DNA from: Micromonospora sp. WMMD1082
GTDB taxonomy: Bacteria; Actinomycetota; Actinomycetes; Mycobacteriales; Micromonosporaceae
Assembly (NCBI RefSeq): GCF_029626175.1
Contig: NZ_JARUBM010000002.1
Location: forward strand, 6,589,001-6,653,000
Direction: 5' to 3'
DNA length: 64,000 nucleotides
Shown here: positions 29,378 through 39,995 of the stretch, piece by piece
How positions within the stretch are numbered: position 1 is the first letter of the stretch
How the letters are laid out: the number at the start of each line of letters is the position of its first letter
Program-made: the position numbers and the translations under genes
The notes under the pieces: generated by a model
What the model was told of the DNA's origin: nothing
Databases searched by the model: none
Seen by the model: the letters and a program-made list of their open reading frames with translations, nothing else

Positions 29378-29485
29378 ATCCCACAGCGCCGGTCCACGGA
29401 TCTGCCGTCCTCACCACGGTCCTTGCGCCCCTCTGTCGTTACTGAGGAGCCCGTTGCCGCGGGATCCCGAGCCTGCTCGGAGCTG

Positions 29486-29866
29486 CTACTGCTCTGGGTT
29501 CAAGGAGTCGATGAGTCCTTGGAGGGCGGTGCGGGTGCTGAGGAGGCTGGCGATGCGTTCGTCGTAGGCTTGGAGGTGCTCAACGAGGGTGGGCACGGCG
29601 CAGGGTTCGAGCCGGCCGGGTTCGTGGATGCACTCCAGCAGCTCGGCGATCACACGAGTCGGCAGGCCGGCCCCCAGCAGAAGCCGGATGGAGCGGACCT
29701 GCTCTACCGCCGAGGCCTCGAAGAGTCGCTGCCCGGTTGCAGAGCGCTCGGTGGCCAGCAGGCCTTGGTTGTCGTAGTAGCGCAGCAACCGCGGGCTCAC
29801 CCCCGTGCGGGAGGCCAGCTCACCAACGCGCAGCAACTGCCTGTCCTGGACGCTTGCCTTTGACAC
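29486..29866 (-). CDS. MerR-family transcriptional regulator
   Basis: 126 residues from GTG 29866. The N-terminal winged HTH is RVGELASRTGVSPRLLRYYDNQGLLATERSATGQRLF (about 10-45). A dimerisation coiled coil follows (EHLQAYDERIASLLSTRTALQGLIDSL). There are no Cys metal ligands, so it is probably not a metal sensor. It is divergent from a class IV aminotransferase gene 25 bases away, the probable target. A palindrome overlaps its start codon. Confidence 0.9.
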   Translation of the reverse strand: MSKASVQDRQLLRVGELASRTGVSPRLLRYYDNQGLLATERSATGQRLFEASAVEQVRSIRLLLGAGLPTRVIAELLECIHEPGRLEPCAVPTLVEHLQAYDERIASLLSTRTALQGLIDSLNPEQ

Positions 29867-29874
29867 TGGTGTCA
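29861..29874. promoter_or_regulatory. Palindrome in MerR/aminotransferase divergent region
   Basis: TGACACTGGTGTCA: 6-base arms around TG, overlapping the MerR start codon and a TTGACA. It is a good candidate for the MerR dimer site, but a -10 at MerR spacing (19-20 bases) is not clear. Confidence 0.5.
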
Positions 29875-29891
29875 GCTCCTACGTTCCTGGC

Positions 29892-30695
29892 ATGGCCGTC
29901 TCGCTCACTCATCTCAACGGTAAGCCCGCCACCGCCAAGGACCTCGCACCGCTGGCGTTCGCTGGCTACGCCCACTTCACCGCCATGCAGGTCCGCGATC
30001 GGGCTGTCCGGGGCTTGGATCTCCACCTGGAGCGCCTACGCCGGGCGAGCGAGGTGCTGTTCGGTCAGCGCCTATCCAACAGCCGGGTCCGCGAGTACCT
30101 GCGCGCGGCCATCGACGCGGGTGGACCGGACGTGTCGCTCACCTGCTTCGTCACCACCCGGCCAGCGGAGTTCATGCCCACCAGCCCTGGCCTGAGCCTG
30201 GATACGCTCATCAAGATCACTGATCCGGCCCAGCCGCCTTCCGGGCCGGTCGCCTTGGACATCGTCCACCATCAGCGGCACCTGTCTGGCATCAAGCACG
30301 TCGGCGAGGTCACCAAGACCTTGTACCTCCGGCAGGCTCAAGCCCGCGGCTTCGACGACGCCGCTTTCGAGGACAGTGCGGGCCGGTTGAGCGAAGCGAC
30401 CATCTGGAACCTCGCCTGGTGGGATGGCGAGCAGGTTATCTGGCCCCGTGCTGACATCCTGCCCGGAGTAACCATGCAGATCATCACCCGCCAACTCCAG
30501 AACGTCGGCGTTCGTCAGCAGACTCGCGAGATCCGCAGAGCCGACCTGAACAAGGACATGGCCGCCGTCATCATGAACTCTTGGACCCCAGCCATTCCTG
30601 TCTCTCGCCTGGGAGACAGGCAGCTCGCGAACGACGCCAACTTCACCCAACTCCTGCACGACGCGTACCAGTCCGAGCCCTCGACCCAGCCCTGA
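29892..30695 (+). CDS. Class IV aminotransferase family protein
   Basis: 267 residues from ATG 29892. Fold-type IV PLP enzyme pattern: LDLHLERLRRASEVLF near the N-terminus, VGEVTKTLYLRQAQARGFDDAAFED with the candidate PLP lysine (K in VTKTLY), RLSEATIWNLAWWDGEQVIWP and ILPGVTMQIITRQL. Related enzymes are branched-chain aminotransferases and aminodeoxychorismate lyase. The Lys context differs somewhat from the canonical IKT/SGN pattern, so the reaction is uncertain. It is divergent from MerR. Confidence 0.8.
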   Translation: MAVSLTHLNGKPATAKDLAPLAFAGYAHFTAMQVRDRAVRGLDLHLERLRRASEVLFGQRLSNSRVREYLRAAIDAGGPDVSLTCFVTTRPAEFMPTSPGLSLDTLIKITDPAQPPSGPVALDIVHHQRHLSGIKHVGEVTKTLYLRQAQARGFDDAAFEDSAGRLSEATIWNLAWWDGEQVIWPRADILPGVTMQIITRQLQNVGVRQQTREIRRADLNKDMAAVIMNSWTPAIPVSRLGDRQLANDANFTQLLHDAYQSEPSTQP

Positions 30696-30863
30696 AACCA
30701 GTGTGAGCAGGTAGTTGACCGCCATCCGCCATCGGGTGAACACGTGGCCCCGGCGGACTACCGTTGCTCCGCATGACTCGCGCCGACACCACAGTCCCGG
30801 CTCACCAGCGCGAACAGCGGCATGAGCGTGTACGCGATCAAGGGTGGCGCGTAGGTTGGATAC

Positions 30864-31781
30864 GTGCTTGAACTTCCCTCGGACATCGAAGCGGCGCGGC
30901 TGTTGGAGCATCTGGGGGCGTCGTCTGAAGACCGAGACGAGACGCTGTCGGCGCGACCCGATCCGCAGGAGCATCCGGATCTGTGGCGGACCTTGGAGCG
31001 CTGCTATCACGACTTGAGGTCAAGTATGGGTTCAGGGCTTCATCCGTCGAACGGATACCGTGGCTTCCCGGCGATGTCGGCTGATGCTGACTCGGTCGCC
31101 CTTCACCTCTACGTATGGCTCTATCTTGCCGTCCTCCCGGAGACGCTCCGCTACCACGCCGAGCGCGGCATCGACCGTCGACGGTCCTGGGAGACGTTGT
31201 CGAGCCTGGGGCCCATGATGGCTGAACATCGATCCGTTCACGGGCTCGGCGGGATCGGGAGATTCGAACAGTGGTGCCCGCCGTTGACGTTCCAGGGGAC
31301 CGAGTATCGGCTCGGCCGACTTGACTACGACCGTGCCCGCGGCAAATGCCCAGACGGCGCGACTAGATTTCTGCTGAACATGCACATCCCGTCCGGTGTA
31401 TCCCTATCACCTGAGTCCTGTGACGAATCACTTGACCTGGCCCGCACATTCTTCGTGCGTCATTTCCCTGACGAACCGGTCTCGCACTTCACATGCCACT
31501 CGTGGCTACTCGACCCCCAACTCACCGAATACCTCCCCGAGCAGTCGAACATCGTACGCTTTCTCCACCGCTTCGACCTGGAGCCGCTGACGTCCCACGA
31601 TCAGAATCATGCCGACGGCGACATGTTGGAGTACATCTTCGGCCAACCCGGCCAGAGCGGTCCGGTAGCCGCGAACCAACTCGCGGACCTGCCACAAGCC
31701 ACGTCCCTACAAAGGGCGTACGTGGCCCACCTCCGTTCCGGACGGAACTGGCGCGCACGCACTGGCTGGATCGCCTACTGA
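30864..31781 (+). CDS. Probable acyltransferase-domain protein (GNAT-like C-terminal fold)
   Basis: 305 residues from GTG 30864; a TAGGTT box 9 bases upstream suggests a near-leaderless transcript. The segment LYVWLYLAVLPETLRYHAERGI and the C-terminal FHCHSWLLDPQLTEYLP-like stretch (FTCHSWLLDPQLTEYLPEQ) match what I recall of DUF5596-type acyltransferase proteins with N- and C-terminal halves. No catalytic residue is assigned with confidence. It stands alone at the start of the accessory region. Confidence 0.55.
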   Translation: MLELPSDIEAARLLEHLGASSEDRDETLSARPDPQEHPDLWRTLERCYHDLRSSMGSGLHPSNGYRGFPAMSADADSVALHLYVWLYLAVLPETLRYHAERGIDRRRSWETLSSLGPMMAEHRSVHGLGGIGRFEQWCPPLTFQGTEYRLGRLDYDRARGKCPDGATRFLLNMHIPSGVSLSPESCDESLDLARTFFVRHFPDEPVSHFTCHSWLLDPQLTEYLPEQSNIVRFLHRFDLEPLTSHDQNHADGDMLEYIFGQPGQSGPVAANQLADLPQATSLQRAYVAHLRSGRNWRARTGWIAY

Positions 31782-32100
31782 CCAGGCCAGGAATTCGCCC
31801 GAGATACACTGAGGGCTCAATCCACCCAGGCTGGTACGGTCGCGCTGCACGTCGGGCCCGCTCCACCTGGACCAATCCCAGCGGCGTGATGATCGGGCCC
31901 GACAGCGGTCTCCCGGTCGACACGACGAGGCCGCGGCAAGGGAGTTCCGGCTCGCGCGACAAACCCGAACGAGCCTCGGCCCGAAGCAAGATCGAGTGCA
32001 CGCTCGTCGGCACGATCGCGCTGGGCTCTGCCGTCCTCGGTCACGTACTGTGACGCCCGCTCGGCGGCAGATCCGGATGTCGGCGGGCGATGTACTGATT
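31782..32100. other. Non-coding gap with motif copy A
   Basis: 319 bases without a credible gene. Its 3' end holds GTCAC-GTACT-GTGAC and a CGCCCGC/GCGGGCG inverted repeat that encloses one copy of the recurrent GCGGCARAT motif. Confidence 0.55.
32064..32082 (+). repeat. Recurrent intergenic motif, copy A
   Basis: GCGGCAGATCCGGATGTCG, enclosed by a 7-bp inverted repeat (CGCCCGC...GCGGGCG). It shares its core and much of its 3' half with copies at 32702, 37526, 37938, 38408 and 39445, all on the same strand and all between genes. Confidence 0.6.
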
Positions 32101-32622
32101 TCACAGCCAGGTGGCCGTCACCGCTCGCAGCAGTCCGGGATCGATCTCCAACGGGTCGGTCCCGCGGAGAGCATGCTCCATGGTGATCGCCGTGTCCCGT
32201 TCGGGCGAGTTGGCGTGACACGCGCAGTCCAGCCATTCGGCGGCTGAGTAAGCGTCGCCGATTACGCCGCCGGGATAGTCGAGGTCCGGGGCGAGCCGCG
32301 CCAAGAATCGGATCGCCGCGAACTCGTCGGCCTGGGGTCGTTCAGCTGTAACCGGACCCACCAGACGCGCGATCACGTTGCTGGACTGCTCTATGGGCAT
32401 CTCCCGAATGCCAAGTTCGACCAGCAGTTCAGGCACCAGCTGGTCGACACGCCAGGGCGACCCCGCCCTCGGCAGGCCGGCGAGCTCGCAGACCGCTTCC
32501 CCTTCGGCTCCCTGCGCGACCAGATGAGCGGCTACATGCGGCCAATCGCTGCTGAGGATGAGGCCGAGGCGCTGTGCCGCGCCAACCAACCGGCGTTCGT
32601 CACTGGTGAGCACCCCGTTCAT
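32101..32622 (-). CDS. Hypothetical protein, accessory region
   Basis: 173 residues from ATG 32622 (ATGAACGGGGTGCTC); an upstream ATG at 32646 is possible. Acidic and helical, rich in Leu/Ala/Glu, no membrane segment, no signal peptide and no motif I recognise. It is flanked by motif copies A and B, like a single-gene cassette. By context with CPCC, DUF4265 and Imm35 genes it may be an immunity or defence accessory protein, but sequence gives no function. Confidence 0.55.
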   Translation of the reverse strand: MNGVLTSDERRLVGAAQRLGLILSSDWPHVAAHLVAQGAEGEAVCELAGLPRAGSPWRVDQLVPELLVELGIREMPIEQSSNVIARLVGPVTAERPQADEFAAIRFLARLAPDLDYPGGVIGDAYSAAEWLDCACHANSPERDTAITMEHALRGTDPLEIDPGLLRAVTATWL

Positions 32623-32701
32623 GACCGCGCCTCCCAGCTGCTGCACAACTCAGCCGACGGCCGATCGCTAGCGTCTCATCCAAACATGAAATCCGCGCCT
32701 C

Positions 32702-32720
32702 GCGGCAGATCCGTGCACCT
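32702..32720 (+). repeat. Recurrent intergenic motif, copy B
   Basis: GCGGCAGATCCGTGCACCT in the 218-base gap between the hypothetical gene and the TPR-PIN gene. The first 13 bases agree with copy A apart from one position further on. Confidence 0.55.
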
Positions 32721-32864
32721 GATCTTGACGATGGTCCCAGTAGTTGAACGGGCCGTCGACGGCATGTTCGGACTTCTCCGGTCTACAGTCGACATAGCTG
32801 GTAGCCCGCAGCTCCATACCGGCAGGGCTAACGGCAACCTGTGAGTGGTTGAACTGTCGTTGCT

Positions 32865-35800
32865 TCAGTCGCGATGGGTCAGAATCACCCGCGAAGCCGT
32901 CGCCTTGTCGGACTCCGGCAACAAGGCGACGAGGGCCAGCATCATCGACATGGCAAAGGCATGTCCGTGCTTGGCGACCAGATTGCGGTGAACGCCAGTG
33001 GCCACGGCCTCGAACGGGTCAGTGGCCGGCGGCCGTTCGCCGATTCCCGCTCGTACACCGCGCAACACTGCCGGGAGCCTATCGGCGTTCATCCACGGCT
33101 GCGTCATGCACCGAGTCAGAAGGGCTTGCAGGTTGGCGCTGGCACCGCGGTCGTCTTCGGTGATGCGAACCAGTCCGATGGCGGTCGCGGACACCCAGAC
33201 CTCGATCTGGTCCGGTCCGGCGGTCGCGGCGTGCGCCAGCATGGCGAGCACGAATTCGATCACCGCGTTAGGGTCGGTCCAGGTCGCAGGCCGGGTCAGC
33301 GCGAACGCCACCCCGCGCGGCACCTGGCCGTCGATCGTCGCGGCCAGGTCGAACGTGACCCGGTCGAATCCGAGGTCGGTGAAGTAGTTGGTAAGCAGGA
33401 CCGCCTCGGCCGCTGTGCGAAGCTCACGCGGGATCTGTCCCCGGCTCTGCAGGTGCCGGATGAGGTCTACCGTGCCGAAGGCCGGGACGCCCATATCGGC
33501 AGCGACCGAACGCAGACGATGGTCGTCGCACCAGAATGCTGTGCTTTGAGCAGCCGCCATATCGAGCGATGACAGCCACTCGAATCCCTGGTCGGCATCG
33601 CGGAATCTCGTCAGCCGCGGCCACGGCCGGCGTGTTGCTTGACGCAGGATCGAGCAGACCAGCGTGGACTTCTCGGCAAGTGCGTCGGCGACGGACTCCT
33701 CGATTGTCGTGACGGTCGGGCGCTGCTCGACGGGATCCCAGCCGGGCGACGTGGTCGAGCGCATGCCGAGTGACTCCTGCCCACGGATCGCGTCGTGGTA
33801 GGCGTCGTCGGTGGCGCGGACCTGTCCGAAGCCAGAGAGCAACTGCGAGCGCAGCTGCGGTTCGAGCAGGGCCAGCGTGTGAGCGGCGGTGATGTCGATA
33901 ATCACGGCGCTGTTCAGGGCGGCCTCGGCTACCGCCCTGCCGTGTGCCTCTGTCGCCGGGGAATGAGCGCTGATGAAGCCGGCGTCGCGTTTCAGCGATG
34001 CCTCGGTGTAGGAGGAGCCGTAGGCGGTGGCGAAGACGCCCAGGGGCAAGTTGGCGAGGTCGAGCTCCTTGACCGCTTCGCTTAGTGATTCGTAGCGTGC
34101 GCGGATAATCGGTGCGAGTGAGCCGAGCGGATCCTCGTTCGAGATCGTCACCTTACGAAACACGGTGCTGTCGGGAAAGCGCTCGGCGTAGTCGAACATG
34201 GCGGTGTGCAGCGCGGCGAGGTCCTCGTCGGTCGTGGAAAGCCCTTGCCGCTGCAGACCGAAGAAGATCTGAGCGATGAAGACCCCCATCAGCTGCTCGT
34301 CGTCCGGCCATCGGGCCATCGTGGACAGCGCGCGGGACACGAACTGGGTGCTGGTATCGAATCGGGCGACCAGGCCGATCCAGGTGCGGGCGTCGTGCCG
34401 GTCGCGGGGGGCGAACGGATCGCCGTCAGGGGTAAGGGCGTTCCACGCACCGTCTCTATCATTGCGGCGGACCAAGGCGTGTACGAGTGCCCAGCGGGCA
34501 TTTGCAGCGTTGGGATCGAGCGTGACCAGGTTGCGGGCCTGCTCGATCGCCAGGTCCCACTGCCCGTCGTCGACGTGGATTTCGAAGATCAACGCGCGCG
34601 TGTCGAATTGGCCAGCCCACTCGGGGCCGCCCATTGTCAACGCGCGTTCGGCGGTCCGAATCGCTGCTTCGGGCTCGCCTGCGGCCCGCAGGTGGGTTGC
34701 TGACGCGAGCATCGAGCCTGGATCGTTCCACCGGTGTGCGCTGTCGTTGAGCACGTCGGCGGCCAGCTGATGCTTCTCCTCGTGCCCGTATCGCTCCGCG
34801 AGCAGCACCGCGAGCGCCAGGTGTTCGGTGGCGCCGGCGCGCAGGGCTTCGATCGTTCCGCCGCCGGCACCCATGGCGCGGTGAATGGCCTTGATCTCGT
34901 CGACCAACCGCGGGTGCTGCTGTTCCATCTCGGTGAGATCCGGCAGATCACCTCCAGTGTGGGCCAGCCCTCGGACCGCAATAAGGAAGTCCGTGCCGGT
35001 CTCCGCGGCGTCCAGGGCGGTCTGCCACGCTGCGGCGGCGACCGAGTCTTCGGCGGTGCTGGTCAGCACCACGGCCTCGATCTCGGCCACGACGAAAGGG
35101 TTGCCGATCTCCGCGGCCAACGAGCGGGCCTGGTCGTGCTGGCCGGTTGTGGCGAGCAGCTCCGCCTTCTCCCTTCGCAGCCTGAGGTCAGTGGCCTCGT
35201 GTGGCCAGGCATCACCCTCGGGTGCCGGCTCGATGAGCGCCCGCGCTTGCCTCACTTTGCCGCCGAGCCGGCGCGCCTTGACCGCAATGACGGTCGCTTT
35301 GACGCTGTCGCCGTGCCACGATCGTTGGGCGTTGCGTGCCGTGATTGCTAACGCGGCCGCCTGTTCAGTGTCGGCCAACCGGTGGACGGTCTCCCCGTAT
35401 TGCGCTCGGTAAAGCAGCAGCTCGGCGGCGTAGAGCGCTGGCCCGCTCGCGCCCTCGATATCGGCGGCCTCGAGCGCGTACTTGATCCCCAAGTTCAGGT
35501 TGTCCGCCCGGGCATGCAGCCGCGCAAGCAGCTGCAGCCGCATCGCCTCGTCGGCGTTCGACGACGTCTGCCACCCTGCCAGAACGTCGATGGCCAGATC
35601 CCACTTCTGACGGTGGACGAGGAGTAAGGCATGAGCAAACACATGGTCCCCGGCCGCGCCAGCGAGGAGCTCGTCGACCTCAGCGACGGCCTCCTTAGGC
35701 AGAGCCATTGCCTGCCGCGCCTTCCAATATCCGATCGGATAGGCACCACGCTGCACGGCAATAGCGAACAGCCTCGCCGCCGTAGGGTTCTGGCCGTAAT

Positions 35801-36401
35801 CGGATGCCAGTTCCGCCAGCCAGCAGATCACCTCCACGGGCGCCAGGGAGAACCAGGCCGGCGGCTGCTCGCCCCACTGTCGAAGGACAGCGCCACGATC
35901 ATCCGCCGTGACAATGCTATGCACCAACTGCTCCACGACCGGCCACGAATCACGGATCTCAATGGCCCGATCGCGGCGCCACGGCTGGAGCATGCCCACC
36001 TGGTCGTCGAACGCCCGGGTCGTTGACATCCGGCTCAGGATGGAATGGGTGCCATCCTCCACCGCCGCGCAAGTGGACGACGCCGCGGCACGTATGTGTT
36101 CGACCTGCCGAGCCTCTTGCTGCTCGCTGTCCACAGAGTCAAGATGCCTGGAGATCAGCCGGACGCCGGTCAGACACACGACGGCCACGACGCCGAGCAC
36201 GCCCAGCATGAGGGTGACGTTGCTGGTGAACAGGTTGAGCACCACGGCGACGACGGCCTCGCACGCTGCGGTGACCACAATCGCGACCGCCCACAGGGGC
36301 AGCCTTGGGCCGCGGCCCCTGCTCGGGTACGCAGGACTGCCGCCCGGCGGCGAGCCAGCCCCCGCATCGGTGGCGGCCAGCCGACCAAATCTCCGCAACA
36401 T
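32865..36401 (-). CDS. Membrane-anchored TPR protein with probable C-terminal PIN domain
   Basis: 1178 residues. Two transmembrane helices lie at about 35-57 and 62-83 after a basic N-terminus. Residues about 140-760 are a helical solenoid with TPR-like units (e.g. GQWDLAIEQARNLVTLDPNAANARWALVHALVRR and AAGEPEAAIRTAERAL). Residues about 830-985 look like a PIN nuclease: D836 in AVIIDITAAHT, D865/D866 in VRATDDAYHDAI, and D959/D960 in FWCDDHRLRSVAADMGVPAFGTVDLI. The last 190 residues are helical and unassigned. The layout recalls TPR-(GreA/B-C)-PIN conflict proteins, with membrane anchoring as an addition. It is divergent from a DUF4265 gene. The PIN call is by eye. Confidence 0.7.
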   Translation of the reverse strand: MLRRFGRLAATDAGAGSPPGGSPAYPSRGRGPRLPLWAVAIVVTAACEAVVAVVLNLFTSNVTLMLGVLGVVAVVCLTGVRLISRHLDSVDSEQQEARQVEHIRAAASSTCAAVEDGTHSILSRMSTTRAFDDQVGMLQPWRRDRAIEIRDSWPVVEQLVHSIVTADDRGAVLRQWGEQPPAWFSLAPVEVICWLAELASDYGQNPTAARLFAIAVQRGAYPIGYWKARQAMALPKEAVAEVDELLAGAAGDHVFAHALLLVHRQKWDLAIDVLAGWQTSSNADEAMRLQLLARLHARADNLNLGIKYALEAADIEGASGPALYAAELLLYRAQYGETVHRLADTEQAAALAITARNAQRSWHGDSVKATVIAVKARRLGGKVRQARALIEPAPEGDAWPHEATDLRLRREKAELLATTGQHDQARSLAAEIGNPFVVAEIEAVVLTSTAEDSVAAAAWQTALDAAETGTDFLIAVRGLAHTGGDLPDLTEMEQQHPRLVDEIKAIHRAMGAGGGTIEALRAGATEHLALAVLLAERYGHEEKHQLAADVLNDSAHRWNDPGSMLASATHLRAAGEPEAAIRTAERALTMGGPEWAGQFDTRALIFEIHVDDGQWDLAIEQARNLVTLDPNAANARWALVHALVRRNDRDGAWNALTPDGDPFAPRDRHDARTWIGLVARFDTSTQFVSRALSTMARWPDDEQLMGVFIAQIFFGLQRQGLSTTDEDLAALHTAMFDYAERFPDSTVFRKVTISNEDPLGSLAPIIRARYESLSEAVKELDLANLPLGVFATAYGSSYTEASLKRDAGFISAHSPATEAHGRAVAEAALNSAVIIDITAAHTLALLEPQLRSQLLSGFGQVRATDDAYHDAIRGQESLGMRSTTSPGWDPVEQRPTVTTIEESVADALAEKSTLVCSILRQATRRPWPRLTRFRDADQGFEWLSSLDMAAAQSTAFWCDDHRLRSVAADMGVPAFGTVDLIRHLQSRGQIPRELRTAAEAVLLTNYFTDLGFDRVTFDLAATIDGQVPRGVAFALTRPATWTDPNAVIEFVLAMLAHAATAGPDQIEVWVSATAIGLVRITEDDRGASANLQALLTRCMTQPWMNADRLPAVLRGVRAGIGERPPATDPFEAVATGVHRNLVAKHGHAFAMSMMLALVALLPESDKATASRVILTHRD

Positions 36402-36526
36402 ACAGACTGCTCGCCTTCAGTTCGACTCCCCGCCGCACAATCCAGCCTTGGAGCGTGCAGCGGTACCCTACGACGGTAGGCGACGCTGGAGTGGGCTCGG
36501 CGGTACCCAGGACGGTGGGGTTTCAC

Positions 36527-37030
36527 GTGGCATCGGGTTCGGTCGACGTCCATGCTCAGCGGGAAGCTGAGGACATCAAGGTCTGGTTCCGGTTCGTACC
36601 ACGGGAGGGCTGGTTGCCCTTCGACACGGAAGGGTTGTGGGCGACACGGGTCGGCGAGGATCTGGCCCGGGTCCGCAACGTGCCGTTCCTGCAGGACGGA
36701 GTAGCTGAGGACGACGTCGTGCGTTTCGTGACGGACGCCGACGGGCTGCACTGGTCTGTAGAACAGGTTCAAGCCTCCGGCAACTGCACCGTGCGTGTCC
36801 TCCCGAATCCCGATGGACCACTCGGCCGGTCGGCGCAAGCCGTGCACGCCGAGTTCACGGCATTCAACCTCGGCGGCGAGGTCTTCAGCGAACAGTTGCC
36901 ACTGGTGGCGTTCAACATCCCGGCCGACGCGGATCTCACCGCTATCAAGATGTTGCTGGAACGTGGCCAAAACAATGACTGGTGGCACTACGAGGTGGGA
37001 TCCGGAACCCCACGATGGTGGGACGCCTGA
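36527..37030 (+). CDS. DUF4265 domain-containing protein
   Basis: About 167 residues from GTG 36527 (GGTGGGG upstream as ribosome-binding site); GTG 36515 is an alternative. The segments KVWFRFVPREGWLPFDTEGLWAT, RVRNVPFLQDGVAEDDVVRFVTD and VQASGNCTVRVL match the DUF4265 pattern (WA..., nPFf..gia.gDvV, SGn.TvRV). This family is small, cytosolic and often found next to toxin or immunity genes. Divergent from the TPR-PIN gene; 125 bases separate the starts. Confidence 0.75.
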   Translation: MASGSVDVHAQREAEDIKVWFRFVPREGWLPFDTEGLWATRVGEDLARVRNVPFLQDGVAEDDVVRFVTDADGLHWSVEQVQASGNCTVRVLPNPDGPLGRSAQAVHAEFTAFNLGGEVFSEQLPLVAFNIPADADLTAIKMLLERGQNNDWWHYEVGSGTPRWWDA

Positions 37031-37090
37031 CACTCATCGATTCACGATGCGCCGCCGGGCGACAACTCGCACGATCAGCGGCAGAAGCCG

Positions 37091-37135
37091 ATGCCGGTAG
37101 GGTCCCGTATGTCGAGCTGCGGTTCCTACCGGCAT
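37091..37135. terminator. Hairpin between convergent genes, with motif fragment in loop
   Basis: Perfect 11-bp inverted repeat ATGCCGGTAGG/CCTACCGGCAT around a 23-base loop. The loop carries CCGTATGTCGAG, the 3' half of the recurrent motif, and GCGGCAGA, its 5' half, lies just before the stem. It overlaps the stop of the minus-strand gene. Confidence 0.6.
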
Positions 37136-37368
37136 AGCCAGAAACCGTCGCCGTCGTGACGGACCACGTCTCCATCTGGCTGCCGGACAAAGACCGCCGC
37201 GCCCTCGATCCATACCTCGTCGCCAACGTGCAGGATGAGAGGACGCGGAAGCTCCACCGCCCAGTCGCCAGCCTCAACCATGGTCATGATCGTTAGACGA
37301 GTCACTGGCGTGGGGTCGGTCCGGATAACTCCGGTGGAGTCATCACCTTTGCCGAGGCGCATCTGCAC
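37126..37368 (-). CDS. Small hypothetical protein
   Basis: 80 residues from ATG 37368. The C-terminal half (LHVGDEVWIEGAAVFVRQPDGDVVRHDGDGFWL) reads as a short beta-sheet protein. No motif recognised. Its stop lies in a strong hairpin, which supports it as a real gene. A shorter form from the internal ATG at about codon 28 is possible. Confidence 0.45.
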   Translation of the reverse strand: MQMRLGKGDDSTGVIRTDPTPVTRLTIMTMVEAGDWAVELPRPLILHVGDEVWIEGAAVFVRQPDGDVVRHDGDGFWLCR

Positions 37369-37525
37369 GGACCGAGACTACCGAGCTGGGTAATCCGTGC
37401 TGTTCAGCATAATCGGGCACAAAACGCCTCCGAGGGCGCCGACAAGTTGGCAAAAGCGCTGGACCCGCACAGCAGCATAGCCGGAGCATACGGGACAATC
37501 GGTCACCATCTTTCACGCCCGATTC

Positions 37526-37534
37526 GCGGCAGAT
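37526..37534 (+). repeat. Recurrent intergenic motif, copy C (core only)
   Basis: GCGGCAGAT followed by GAGCGCGTC; only the 9-base core is conserved. It lies 37 bases before the next gene's ATG. Confidence 0.4.
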
Positions 37535-37570
37535 GAGCGCGTCTCACCCGTCGTCGTGGATCATCGGTGG

Positions 37571-37891
37571 ATGGGCATTCAAGTCGAGCTGCATTCGGCC
37601 GGCCAGCGGCTGGAAGCATTGCCAGACCCCGACGGCGGGTCCTTCGACGCAGCCGGTGACTTCGACCGGTTGATCCCTCGTGACGACCCGGCCTTTCCGC
37701 TGCTAGGCCAGGTCGACCCGTACGGCGAGACTCATCTCGGCCCTACTGATATGGGTTCCCTCATAACGGAAGTCGACCGATTGCTCAGTCGCGCGAAGCC
37801 TGGCCCGGAGTACCGCGGGCTGATGCGACTGCGGACGATGGCAATTCACTGCTCCACCGAGCAACAGCAACTCGTGTTCATCGGCGACTGA
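37571..37891 (+). CDS. Small hypothetical protein
   Basis: 106 residues from ATG 37571; GTG 37556 is also possible. Acidic, soluble, with GSFDAAGDFDRLIPRDDPAFPLLGQVDPYGET in the centre. This resembles small immunity-like proteins in style, but I recognise no family. It is flanked by motif copies C and D. Confidence 0.6.
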   Translation: MGIQVELHSAGQRLEALPDPDGGSFDAAGDFDRLIPRDDPAFPLLGQVDPYGETHLGPTDMGSLITEVDRLLSRAKPGPEYRGLMRLRTMAIHCSTEQQQLVFIGD

Positions 37892-37923
37892 CACCTGCCG
37901 CCCCATCGTGAACTAGGCACAAC

Positions 37924-37958
37924 CTGCCGCACGGTGTGCGGCAGATGCATATGTCGAG
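37924..37958 (+). repeat. Recurrent intergenic motif, copy D, with hairpin
   Basis: A perfect 9-bp hairpin CTGCCGCAC-GGT-GTGCGGCAG whose right arm contains the motif start, followed by ATGCATATGTCGAG. This copy shows best the hairpin-plus-tail structure and shares TATGTCGAG with the fragment at 37107. Confidence 0.65.
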
Positions 37959-37986
37959 ACGGCATCACTCCTGGCACCCTAAGCCG

Positions 37987-38343
37987 GTGGACAGCTCACC
38001 CGTGCAGCGTCATCCGAACGATGATCCCTCTCTGTCAGACGATGAGCTGGTTCGTCGGCGAGTCGCGTGGTTCGACGCCTACACGGCACAGAAGAACGTC
38101 CTGGCCCCGGCTGGAGAGTCTCTCTACACCTGTCCGTGCTGCGGACACCTCACCTTGTCCGAGCGCGGCGGGTACGAGATCTGCGATGAGTGCGGTTGGG
38201 AAGACGACGGGCAAGATGATCACGATAGTGCTGTCGTGAGGGGTGGACCAAACGGGAGACTCAGCCTCGACGCCGCACGCGCTGGTTACATCGACGGTGG
38301 CGGGATTCGGCAGGTTCACCGACCACCCCGTGAGCCGGTATAA
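37987..38343 (+). CDS. CPCC-family cysteine-rich protein
   Basis: About 118 residues from GTG 37987; ATG codons at 37945 and 37951 lie inside motif copy D and are less likely. The signature is YTCPCCGHLTLSERGGYEICDECGWEDDGQDD, with two CxxC pairs for a zinc knuckle, followed by DAARAGY. This is the CPCC family of small proteins often found near polymorphic toxins as immunity-like genes. Its target is unknown. Confidence 0.82.
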   Translation: MDSSPVQRHPNDDPSLSDDELVRRRVAWFDAYTAQKNVLAPAGESLYTCPCCGHLTLSERGGYEICDECGWEDDGQDDHDSAVVRGGPNGRLSLDAARAGYIDGGGIRQVHRPPREPV

Positions 38344-38407
38344 CGCCAACGGAACATGTGCGCCCAGGCGGAGACGCGTCGGGTCGCCCTTCCGGCACGA
38401 CCGCTAA

Positions 38408-38420
38408 GCGGCAAATCAGG
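38408..38420 (+). repeat. Recurrent intergenic motif, copy E
   Basis: GCGGCAAATCAGG, preceded by the palindrome CCGCT-A-AGCGG that includes the motif start. It lies between the converging CPCC and ATP-grasp genes. Confidence 0.45.
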
Positions 38421-38453
38421 ATTCCTCGCCGTGGGTACACACACATACGGCAG

Positions 38454-39314
38454 TCAGAGGGTGCGGGTGAGCAGTGCGGTGATCAGTGTGCTGGGTTCGG
38501 TGGTGGTTGGGCGGTCGCTGACTTGGCCGTCGCCGATCTCGATGATCCGCCAGACTCCGTCGTCGCGGAGGGCGAGGTCGACCGTGGTGAACGGCAGGCC
38601 GAGTGCGGCGATGACCGGTGTGACCGCGTCTAGGTCCACGTCGAGGTGCGGAACGTCGTTCGGGGTGTCCGGATGCGCACCGACCAAGACACAGACGCCG
38701 TTGACCCACCAGGTACGCGCCTCGGCGGAGATGAACCGCTCATAGCGGCGTAGGACGAACCCACCGACGAAGTCGTCCTCACGCAGGTGCCGCAGGCGGC
38801 TTGCCACCTTCCACGCCGTCTCGCCATCGGCGAGGTCGGGAATGAACGCCGCCTCGTACCAGTGGTGCTTCATCGACTTGGTGTAGTCACGCAGGACTGC
38901 CGGGCCAGTGCCCAACTCGACGCGCACCCGATCGAAATCGGCTCGCAGGTCGCCCCTGGTCCACACCGACGTAGGGGTGAGCGCCACCACGGCGCCGTAC
39001 CAGCCGGGCATCTCGTGGGCCCGCCGGTACTGCTCAGGCGAGGTTCGCAGTGTCACGCCGCGCCGGGCCAGCGCCTCAGCGAGGGCTGCGTACTGCTCGC
39101 TACGCAGCATCCAGCCCCGGTAGACCGCCTCACCGCCAGCAGGCACCAACGCCACCGCCTCATCCACACGACCCGGCCTGGTCAGCGCATCGTGGTCCAC
39201 CACCGCCACGTCAAGTCCGGCCTCACGAGCAGCCACCGCCTCCGCCTTGAAGTGCTCGTCGGGACGACGCGGTCGCAGTGGATCCGCAGGAACCAGCAGC
39301 ATCACACCCTGCAT
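38454..39314 (-). CDS. ATP-grasp domain protein (R2K-like)
   Basis: 286 residues from ATG 39314 (MQGVMLLVPADPL). The C-terminal ATP-grasp features include VLRDYTKSMKHHWYEAAFI (lysine region), GGFVLRRYERF, WWVNGVCVLVGAHPD and DDGVWRIIEIGDGQVSDRP, where the acidic Glu and neighbouring Asp would bind metal. N-terminal half: RGWMLRSEQYAALAEALARRGVTLRTSPEQYRRAHEMPGW. This resembles the R2K clade of ATP-grasp enzymes; such enzymes form amide or similar bonds using ATP. The substrate is unknown. Flanked by motif copies E and F. Confidence 0.75.
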   Translation of the reverse strand: MQGVMLLVPADPLRPRRPDEHFKAEAVAAREAGLDVAVVDHDALTRPGRVDEAVALVPAGGEAVYRGWMLRSEQYAALAEALARRGVTLRTSPEQYRRAHEMPGWYGAVVALTPTSVWTRGDLRADFDRVRVELGTGPAVLRDYTKSMKHHWYEAAFIPDLADGETAWKVASRLRHLREDDFVGGFVLRRYERFISAEARTWWVNGVCVLVGAHPDTPNDVPHLDVDLDAVTPVIAALGLPFTTVDLALRDDGVWRIIEIGDGQVSDRPTTTEPSTLITALLTRTL

Positions 39315-39355
39315 CGTGCCCGACCCGGCCAGCAACCTCCACGCCATATTCCGGG

Positions 39356-39422
39356 CTGTCTCGTTAACGGAGACCTCTCTGCTGCCGACGGGTTGACAAG
39401 AGAGGTGCCGTTAGCGAGACAG
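39356..39422. repeat. Long imperfect inverted repeat (about 24-bp arms)
   Basis: Left arm CTGTCTCGTTAACGGAGACC and right arm ending GGTGCCGTTAGCGAGACAG pair over about 24 positions with one base difference and a small bulge, around a loop of 18 bases. It lies just upstream of the ATP-grasp gene and next to motif copy F. It is far more perfect than a normal terminator and AT-richer than its surroundings. It may be a small mobile (MITE-like) remnant or an operator. Confidence 0.7.
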
Positions 39423-39444
39423 GCCCCGCGATTTTACACGGGGA

Positions 39445-39464
39445 GCGGCAAATCCGTACGTCAG
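39445..39464 (+). repeat. Recurrent intergenic motif, copy F
   Basis: GCGGCAAATCCGTACGTCAG, close to the full consensus, preceded by CCCCG...CGGGG pairing. It separates the ATP-grasp and Imm35 genes. Confidence 0.6.
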
Positions 39465-39496
39465 CCTGGGAACGGCGAGGCGTCGTACCGGCGCGG

Positions 39497-39823
39497 TCAG
39501 CCCACATCGGTAGTCAACCCGCCGTGTCGGGGCTGGATCTGGTCTTCGATGGGGTTGCCAGAGGCGCCGAGATACGGCGGCTCACCCGACTTGGGCACGA
39601 CGACCGGACCGTTACCGACGAGAGACGCCAGAAGCTCCATGCCCTGCAAGAACCGTCGCGTGTTGTAGCCGAAAACCCAAGCGGTCGGGAATTCCTGACA
39701 AGAGCAGATGACGACGTCGACACCGCATTGCGGACGCACCACCCGATCAAGCAGATCCTGGGCCGCCTCGTAGGCGTCCTGCATCACGATCCCTTGAAAT
39801 GGCCACGACCGATTCATGTGCAT
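39497..39823 (-). CDS. YrhB/Imm35-like immunity protein
   Basis: 108 residues; ATG 39784 (MQDAYEAAQDLLDRVV) is the likely core start and 39823 the longest. The pattern EFPTAWVFGYNTRRFLQG, GNGPVVVPKSGEPPYLGASGNPIEDQI matches the Imm35 (YrhB) fold: helical start, WvF.Y strand, GNgP.vv, G..p.e. Such proteins neutralise toxins of polymorphic systems. No toxin gene lies nearby, so it is an orphan here. Confidence 0.68.
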   Translation of the reverse strand: MHMNRSWPFQGIVMQDAYEAAQDLLDRVVRPQCGVDVVICSCQEFPTAWVFGYNTRRFLQGMELLASLVGNGPVVVPKSGEPPYLGASGNPIEDQIQPRHGGLTTDVG

Positions 39824-39995
39824 ACCCCCTGCGGGCTGTCTCCGCTGATCCGGTTATCGCCGCGTTATCATCGCATCCTGCGCGGGCACTGAGGCATCCG
39901 CTCATCGGCATGACAGTGCACGTGGCGCCAGTAGGAGCCCTGCGAGTTGGCGTGGTCGGTCACGGCGACGGTCGGCGGAGGAACGGTCACTGGTG

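Follow-up and report, generated by a model that had tools for sequence, protein, structure and literature searches.

Is a short motif that recurs on one strand between small genes a recombination site that delimits mobile cassettes, or a repeat that is tolerated near non-essential genes? The question is raised by a 64,000-nucleotide stretch of Micromonospora sp. WMMD1082 (RefSeq assembly GCF_029626175.1, contig NZ_JARUBM010000002.1), in which an earlier note, made from the letters alone, had described six copies of GCGGCARAT between orphan genes and had proposed both explanations. This stretch, called the window here, is 6589001-6653000 of the genome searched (C2, 7.43 Mb). It very probably carries an orphan array that belongs to a gene-cassette system of the Actinomycetota, one that resembles an integron and is apparently moved by a dedicated Xer-like recombinase. 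The first proposal, a new recombination site that delimits cassettes, is strongly supported by duplications bounded by the core of the site, by homologies between species, and by a recombinase with a putative attI-like site beside its gene.

The repeated motif and the 31-bp site

All six copies first described (32064, 32702, 37526, 37938, 38408 and 39445) lie on the plus strand. GCGGCARAT occurs seven times in the window, with 1.11 copies expected from shuffles and four in the largest shuffle, and a 19-mer form with up to 3 mismatches matches three times against 0.05 expected. The seventh copy, at 31339, lies inside a gene, so the statement that the motif is always between genes holds for the six and needs an exception; this copy scores 3.9 bits and is a non-site, with 16.0-33.2 bits (leave-one-out) for the six. 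Conservation reaches further left than the motif as first described and gives a site of 31 bp, composed of a left arm, TGACGCGCGGWTC, a nearly invariant GCGGCA core, and a right arm, GATCCGGATGCC, with CGGATC and GATCCG as imperfect inverted halves in the arms. The profile was built from 36 array copies in this genome and in G141, G146, G126, and G020, four of 40 9-mers having been dropped as non-sites before the weight matrix was made. There are two types of right arm, the second being TGA/TGT. Of 239 sites, 222 have GCGGCA as their core, in a scan that admitted GCGGCA-like and TCGGCA-like cores only.

The genome-wide search that had been proposed found close matches confined to two one-strand arrays. 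With up to 2 mismatches, all six matches to the 19-mer fall in these arrays, three in the window (plus strand) and three at C2:3546162-3558131 (minus strand). Of the other seven genome matches, all with 3 mismatches, one falls in the second array; such matches are no evidence alone because the 19-mer read backwards gives seven genome matches in all. The second array (array 2) comprises 17 sites at 16644-39291 in reversed coordinates, a count from which two TCGGCA words scoring 13.6 bits are excluded. When both arm types are scored, the window array has nine sites, all on one strand, with cores at 30817-39905, two of them weak (37078 and 39905); its extent had at first been drawn too short, the sites at 30817, 37078, and 39905 having been missed. 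GC content is 65% within the window array versus 71-72% around it.

Breakpoints at the core

Comparison of the arrays with one another and with those of relatives places the ends of many homologous blocks at the sites. Between window positions 37526-38413 and the corresponding block of array 2, identity begins at the GCG of one site and stops at the last GCGGCA base of another. The CPCC cassette is also found in G141, at 89% identity, with ends at -10 and +18/+19 of the cores in both genomes, and two G141 arrays have a 1045-bp stretch in common (99%) that in each array ends at -11 and at +16. For an array-2 cassette found in Micromonospora zingiberis (L144), identity runs from GCGGCA to the last base of GCGGCA, the left site in array 2 being weak (14.6 bits). 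Another array-2 cassette, found in Actinoplanes sandaracinus (L149), has its left end at -4 in both, whereas on the right only the array-2 copy ends at a site (+7). A pair of Propioniciclava contigs have 1383 bp in common (99%), which end at +5 on the right in both contigs and, in one of them, at a scored site on the left; the ATP-grasp cassette and its homolog in G020 both begin at the core. The letters were inspected at eight sets of such ends.

An all-against-all comparison outside the recombinase gene yielded 53 homologous stretches with 103 usable ends, 38 of which lie at a core (-20 to +25 in at least one partner); when the site maps were shifted 200 times, 3.7 ends did so on average and 10 at most. 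Dropped from this count were L187 (the same contig as G235), the self-repeats of L184 and G020c, stretches shorter than 200 bp or less than 80% identical, overlaps with the recombinase gene, and three ends within 15 bp of a sequence end. Judged by these comparisons, cassettes have been duplicated and occur in more than one species, and their breakpoints lie within the 6-bp core.

The left boundary of the window array can be followed in the same way. Window positions 29429-30822 are 92% identical to G235 through the last GCGGCA base at 30822, beyond which the window continues with an acyltransferase cassette and G235 with other genes and a recombinase. Among 150 other genomes of the genus, three matched this flank, with identities of 83-92%; in G309 and G247 different DNA follows the flank block, with one TCGGCA-core site in G309 and no site nearby in G247, as scored by the first matrix. 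The stretches fetched from the three genomes held no further match to the left flank of the window. The right end of the flank block coincides with the core at 30817 in one of the three genomes, and the block encodes a class IV aminotransferase and, by our reading, a MerR-like regulator.

A dispersed repeat or a protein-binding site between genes, with exchange by ordinary homologous recombination or by chance, would suit sites that are short and mostly intergenic: of 97 sites near recombinases 83 lie between genes and 14 inside called genes, though genes make up 66% of the bases. It would not predict blocks whose two breakpoints both lie in a 6-bp core, nor the leader-to-cassette junction and the strict strand bias described below, and we regard it as extremely unlikely. 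The breakpoint statistics contradict a dispersed repeat, and a repeat tolerated near non-essential genes does not explain breakpoints at cores. Neither of the results that the earlier note had named as refuting was obtained, since few of the sites lie inside genes and breakpoints are indeed found at the motif.

A recombinase clade with a putative attI-like site

The arrays of G126, G146, and G140 hold four copies of one tyrosine recombinase, an Xer-like protein of about 305 amino acids that is found in arrays of relatives. It matches PF00589 (Phage_integrase) at 4.6e-26, its closest solved relative is XerD (1a0p, 3e-21), and R157, K183, H247, R250, and Y282, which we take to be the catalytic residues, are invariant in 27 homologs; by sequence, the protein is assigned to the tyrosine recombinase superfamily. 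Two members score 116-121 bits to the NCBIfam models of XerC/XerD (cut-offs 335 and 330), and 53.1 and 52.1 bits to the integron integrase model TIGR02249/integrase_gron (cut-off 265). The two box arginines are 93 residues apart. This distance is about 99 in XerD and about 134 in IntI1, and the spacing in the cassette recombinase is like that of XerD rather than IntI1.

In a tree with the 17 tyrosine recombinase frames of this genome, 32 cassette recombinases from twelve named actinobacterial families form one group (92/80). Nearest to the group are a long-branched fragment, L036, and an Xer-like protein, L020, both placements being unsure. L036 (C2:6824537-6824755), a tyrosine recombinase fragment of this genome, could be a decayed relative of the clade. 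Among Micromonosporaceae, 75 of 354 genomes have a copy or a fragment (best E <=1e-57, counted by hand); most of the weaker listed matches are 40-45% identical and were taken for housekeeping Xer, a few being short fragments of the clade. A scan of genome contigs, from which the best 80 of 150 relatives were kept, gave 79 loci. These come from Micromonospora, Actinoplanes, Dactylosporangium, Propioniciclava, Tessaracoccus, Terrabacter, Knoellia, Cellulomonas, Kineococcus, Nocardia, Actinomadura, Kribbella, and others.

Sites around the recombinase gene lie almost entirely on one strand. In 30 loci of the best relatives, all 38 listed sites (in 20 loci) are on the strand opposite to the recombinase gene. 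In the 79 named loci, most taken with flanks up to 10 kb, sites of at least 20 bits are opposite in 97 cases versus 2 on the same strand (41 loci of at least 76% identity), and in 29 versus 3 among the 38 more distant loci. Furthermore, no 9-mer around the recombinase has a stronger strand bias in the near set than GCGGCAGAT, and in the distant set GCGGCATGA ranks second and GCGGCAGAT fourth. The TGA/TGT arm, searched as GCGGCATG[AT], has a bias of 54 versus 9 in the 41 loci and of 71 versus 8 in the 38.

In many loci, one site on the opposite strand stands some 40-50 bp before the recombinase start. In 13 of the 30 loci, a site of at least 14 bits stands 44-50 bp upstream of the recombinase start, the start being extrapolated from the query. 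When 26 loci were aligned on the core nearest to the start (loci below 78% identity or with a repeated right flank being left out), the leader proved to be shared, with 36 of 46 positions at >=73%, followed by GCGGCA (in all, by selection) and the right arm; from +18 on, agreement is 27-54% per position. The commonest hexamer of the leaders is GCGGCA itself, present in 54 of 81 distinct leaders (36 of 47 near and 18 of 34 distant), and its reverse occurs in one of 47 near and four of 34 distant leaders. The offset of GCGGCA is 39-50 bp in 34 of the 36 near leaders and 28-85 bp in the distant set. A shared leader followed by variable DNA is the pattern expected of an insertion point that takes different cassettes, and we regard the site beside the recombinase gene as a putative attI-like site and insertion junction.

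Loci with two or more large tyrosine recombinases had also been considered as the source of the cassette enzyme, and were set aside as the 305-residue clade fitted better. Clusters of at least two tyrosine recombinases, encoded by long frames of about 400 and 760-900 amino acids, are found at G010:C1:3260651-3262986, in G126 (C39 and C50), and at G020:C1:7253209-7263778; they resemble RIT trios. One such cluster lies near a single site match, G010:C1:3258590.

The recombinase had no match among plasmid records at E 1e-30, and 52 matches among phage records at E 1e-20, all below 60% identity. The best match to tyrosine integrases of Arthrobacter and Gordonia phages is 48.9% identical over 93% of the query. 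These integrases serve a whole phage genome, whereas the cassette recombinase sits in cassette arrays; we know of no cassette array that accompanies them, no search for one having been made. They are a possible source or offshoot of the cassette recombinase.

A second TCGGCA upstream

Many sites have a second word before them. TCGGCA is found at -95 to -31 in 58 of 239 sites, and downstream, at +30 to +95, in nine. An inverted partner of the core, as in attC, was also considered and rejected, TGCCGA being found at -95 to -31 in nine of 239 sites versus 58 for TCGGCA. The distance from TCGGCA to the core clusters at 57-61 bp (29 cases) and 74-83 bp (23 cases), counts that include TCGACA, and the two clusters are about two helical turns apart. 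The upstream word has arms of its own, CGCACT before it and CCGGACG after it. In six cassette homologies the end falls 2-12 bp past the first base of an upstream TCGRCA, and similar genes are thus followed by unlike DNA as far as the next core; in one genome, G126, the word is altered to TCGGTT. The upstream TCGGCA may thus be a second exchange point.

Proposed mechanism and points that weigh against it

A cassette is, on this reading, a short unit, mostly of one or two genes in either direction, that extends from one GCGGCA core to the next. The recombinase would bind the two arms and exchange strands within GCGGCA on double-stranded DNA, cassettes being excised as circles and inserted at the attI-like site or at other sites of an array. 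The upstream TCGGCA, at about 58 or 79 bp, would serve as a second exchange point, either accessory or alternative. Arrays that have no recombinase gene, as is the case for both arrays here, would be fossils or would be served in trans.

A number of observations weigh against an orphan array moved by a dedicated recombinase. No copy of the recombinase is encoded in the window or in the 65-kb second region, the best match in this genome being at 2.1e-36, and each of the four copies that were first detected within arrays bears some damage. The structure model of the recombinase is poor (mean pLDDT 52.8, from 27 similar sequences). Scored sites are absent at 44-50 bp in 17 of the 30 loci, in part an effect of the first matrix, which took no account of the TGA/TGT arm, and in 27 of the 81 distinct leaders GCGGCA is lacking within 110 bp. 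Away from the GCGGCA core lie 65 of the 103 homology ends, six of them at an upstream TCGRCA and the other 59 mostly inside older homologies, transposons, or repeats, as judged by eye. The homologous stretches in this count are not all independent, and the case for cassette movement is comparative throughout.

Relation to integrons and to dif modules

Integrons are defined, in sections of PMC9668308 and PMC8618304, by IntI with an extra domain together with folded attC sites, and the insertion in IntI is also stated in a passage of PMC8138268. The likeness of the present system to integrons is extensive: a divergent recombinase gene with an insertion site near its start, an array whose sites lie on one strand and whose cassettes mostly hold one or two genes, the occurrence of orphan arrays (in integrons, clusters of attC sites lacking integron-integrases, CALINs), and cassettes common to several species. 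Unlike integrons, however, it has an Xer-like recombinase that scores far below the IntI cut-off and a 31-bp arm-core-arm site with a GCGGCA core, without attC boxes or an excess of hairpins; a direct TCGGCA copy often stands upstream, and genes point in both directions. The site profile contains no GTTRRRY, in agreement with the earlier note, and boxes of the RYYYAAC/GTTRRRY kind are lacking. Folding of 60 of the 239 sites (-100 to +30, RNA energies) gave a mean z of 0.00 for the top and -0.03 for the bottom strand, compared with -0.07 for 60 random segments; the perfect 9-bp hairpin described at copy D is present, and hairpins are not a general feature of the sites. No IntI above the curated cut-off was found in 150 Micromonosporaceae genomes, nor in 14 control genomes, so that the sensitivity of this search is not demonstrated.

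An ordinary integron or CALIN was rejected on the IntI score, the attC boxes, and folding. True integron remnants, that is, attC clusters moved by IntI, would account for the same platform logic (divergent recombinase, attI-like junction, one-strand sites, and orphan arrays), and are nevertheless highly improbable given the scores of the two recombinases tested, the 150 genomes with no IntI over the cut-off (the 14 controls also being below it), random-like folding, the missing GTTRRRY, and genes in both directions (113 along the site and 139 against it in the intervals between sites). Because there is no IntI over the cut-off and folding is about random, we describe the system as integron-like in its working and do not class it as an integron.

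The other known relative is dif, which in part of PMC12907356 is described as two 11-bp arms around a 6-bp centre, with pdif modules that carry C/D and D/C sites. The present system is similar in having two arms around a 6-bp centre, an Xer-like enzyme, and small gene modules, and its arm-core-arm geometry is compatible with the 28-bp plan of dif, the arms being imperfectly inverted (CGGATC/GATCCG). Modules of the Acinetobacter pdif kind, exchanged by housekeeping XerC/XerD, would explain this plan and the Xer-like enzyme, and housekeeping Xer could serve the orphan arrays of this genome. In pdif modules C/D and D/C sites alternate, whereas here sites are nearly all in one direction (38 of 38; 97 versus 2; 29 versus 3). 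Furthermore, the core is another one, the arrays hold a dedicated recombinase clade with its own attI-like site, and the recombinase scores below the XerC/XerD cut-offs; the housekeeping explanation is, on this evidence, very unlikely.

According to a passage of PMC9024848, integrons are extremely rare in Actinobacteria and none has been found complete; the passage calls their absence from certain clades intriguing. An orphan array of a dedicated cassette system leads to a wider proposal, which we consider fairly likely: Actinobacteria (at least ten families) may own an independently built counterpart of the integron, with an Xer-like recombinase and double-stranded GCGGCA sites, in which the second TCGGCA point lets a gene swap its site module, a route to new cassettes. 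If true, a parallel cassette system would fill the actinobacterial integron gap, with a site that is not a single-stranded DNA hairpin, and would offer a place to study how cassettes acquire recombination sites. Many of its cassettes are of unknown function, in genera that produce antibiotics. No earlier description of such an actinobacterial system was found in the literature searched, which was covered partly by titles and did not include preprints.

Cassette content

Genes were called by a simple GC-frame script, and intervals shorter than 250 or longer than 5000 bp were left out. The 172 intervals between sites have a median length of 1285 bp, 116 of them with one or two called genes and 29 with none. 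After proteins sharing >15% of their 6-mers with an earlier one had been dropped, 229 were kept, and 227 were scanned (the 229 minus a transposase, the G235 recombinase frame, and a 75-residue frame, plus the CPCC protein of the window). The Pfam scan was made in two sets, of 117 and 110 proteins; of 90 families in the first and 72 in the second, the top 25 of each set were listed. The commonest listed families have 2 to 6 members each, and include acetyltransferases, methyltransferases, mycothiol/DinB, MFS, sigma-70 region 4, SUKH, transposases, and DUFs. The genes had been taken for orphan defence and immunity genes, a special link that is not borne out: PADLOC models were matched by at most 7 of the first 117 proteins scanned, and the Pfam matches are diverse. 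The PIN, NACHT, and caspase genes can be called conflict genes, a label that does not suit the arrays as a whole.

A two-gene unit, 96% identical, stands between sites in two arrays of one genome (L073:15626-16230 and L089:10840-11444); by our reading its genes are HicA/HicB-like in length and sequence.

Features of the window array

The features of the window array are collected in Table 1. Scans of the window for Rfam families (gathering threshold) and for tRNA genes gave no match, and a tRNA-integrated element is therefore unlikely here.

Table 1. Sites, cassette genes, and duplicated block of the array, in window coordinates
Feature	Position	Strand	Remarks
Recombination site 1	30804..30834	+	Core GCGGCA 30817-30822, right arm TGA, 25.8 bits; left end of array as detected
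NAT_N/GNAT_C acyltransferase cassette gene, 305 aa	30864..31781	+	Pfam PF18164 3.4e-41, PF18082 2.9e-26
Upstream TCGGCA putative sub-site, direct orientation	32007..32012	+	57 bp before core 32064
Recombination site 2	32051..32081	+	Core 32064-32069, 34.4 bits
Hypothetical cassette gene, 181 aa	32101..32646	-	No Pfam match at E 0.01
Recombination site 3	32689..32719	+	Core 32702-32707, 26.3 bits
Large cassette protein, PIN-TPR-GreABC domain, 1178 aa	32865..36401	-	PF20698 1.6e-11
DUF4265 cassette gene, 167 aa	36527..37030	+	PF14085 4.8e-34
Recombination site 4, weak	37065..37095	+	Core 37078-37083, right arm GAAGCC, 15.9 bits; between DUF4265 gene and 80-aa frame
Possible hypothetical cassette gene, 80 aa	37126..37368	-	Open frame; no Pfam match
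Recombination site 5	37513..37543	+	Core 37526-37531, 33.7 bits; left end of duplication shared with array 2
Two-cassette block	37526..38413	+	98.2% identical to C2:3545705-3546592 (-); both ends at cores in both copies
Hypothetical cassette gene, 111 aa	37556..37891	+	No Pfam match
Recombination site 6	37925..37955	+	Core 37938-37943, 31.3 bits; holds likely CPCC start codon at 37951
CPCC cassette gene, 130 aa	37951..38343	+	PF14206 7.8e-18 on longer frame from 37936
Recombination site 7	38395..38425	+	Core 38408-38413, 27.5 bits; right end of duplication
ATP-grasp R2K_3 cassette gene, 297 aa	38454..39347	-	PF14243 1.4e-43
Recombination site 8	39432..39462	+	Core 39445-39450, 21.8 bits
Imm35 cassette gene, 108 aa	39497..39823	-	PF15567 2.2e-13
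Possible terminal site 9, weak	39892..39922	+	Core TCGGCA 39905-39910, right arm TGACAG, 18.0 bits; GC 71% beyond vs 65% in array

Other features of array 2

Array 2 contains an exact duplication of 459 bp that includes a site (L015:3520-3978 and L015:5749-6207, that is, C2:3555520-3555978 and C2:3557749-3558207), with a DDE transposase gene (L015:4091-5737) between the two copies. Its conflict-type genes encode a NACHT protein (L015:6446-9634) and a caspase-domain protein (L015:13294-15098), the latter adjoining a protein with a weak EACC1 match, below the cut-off.

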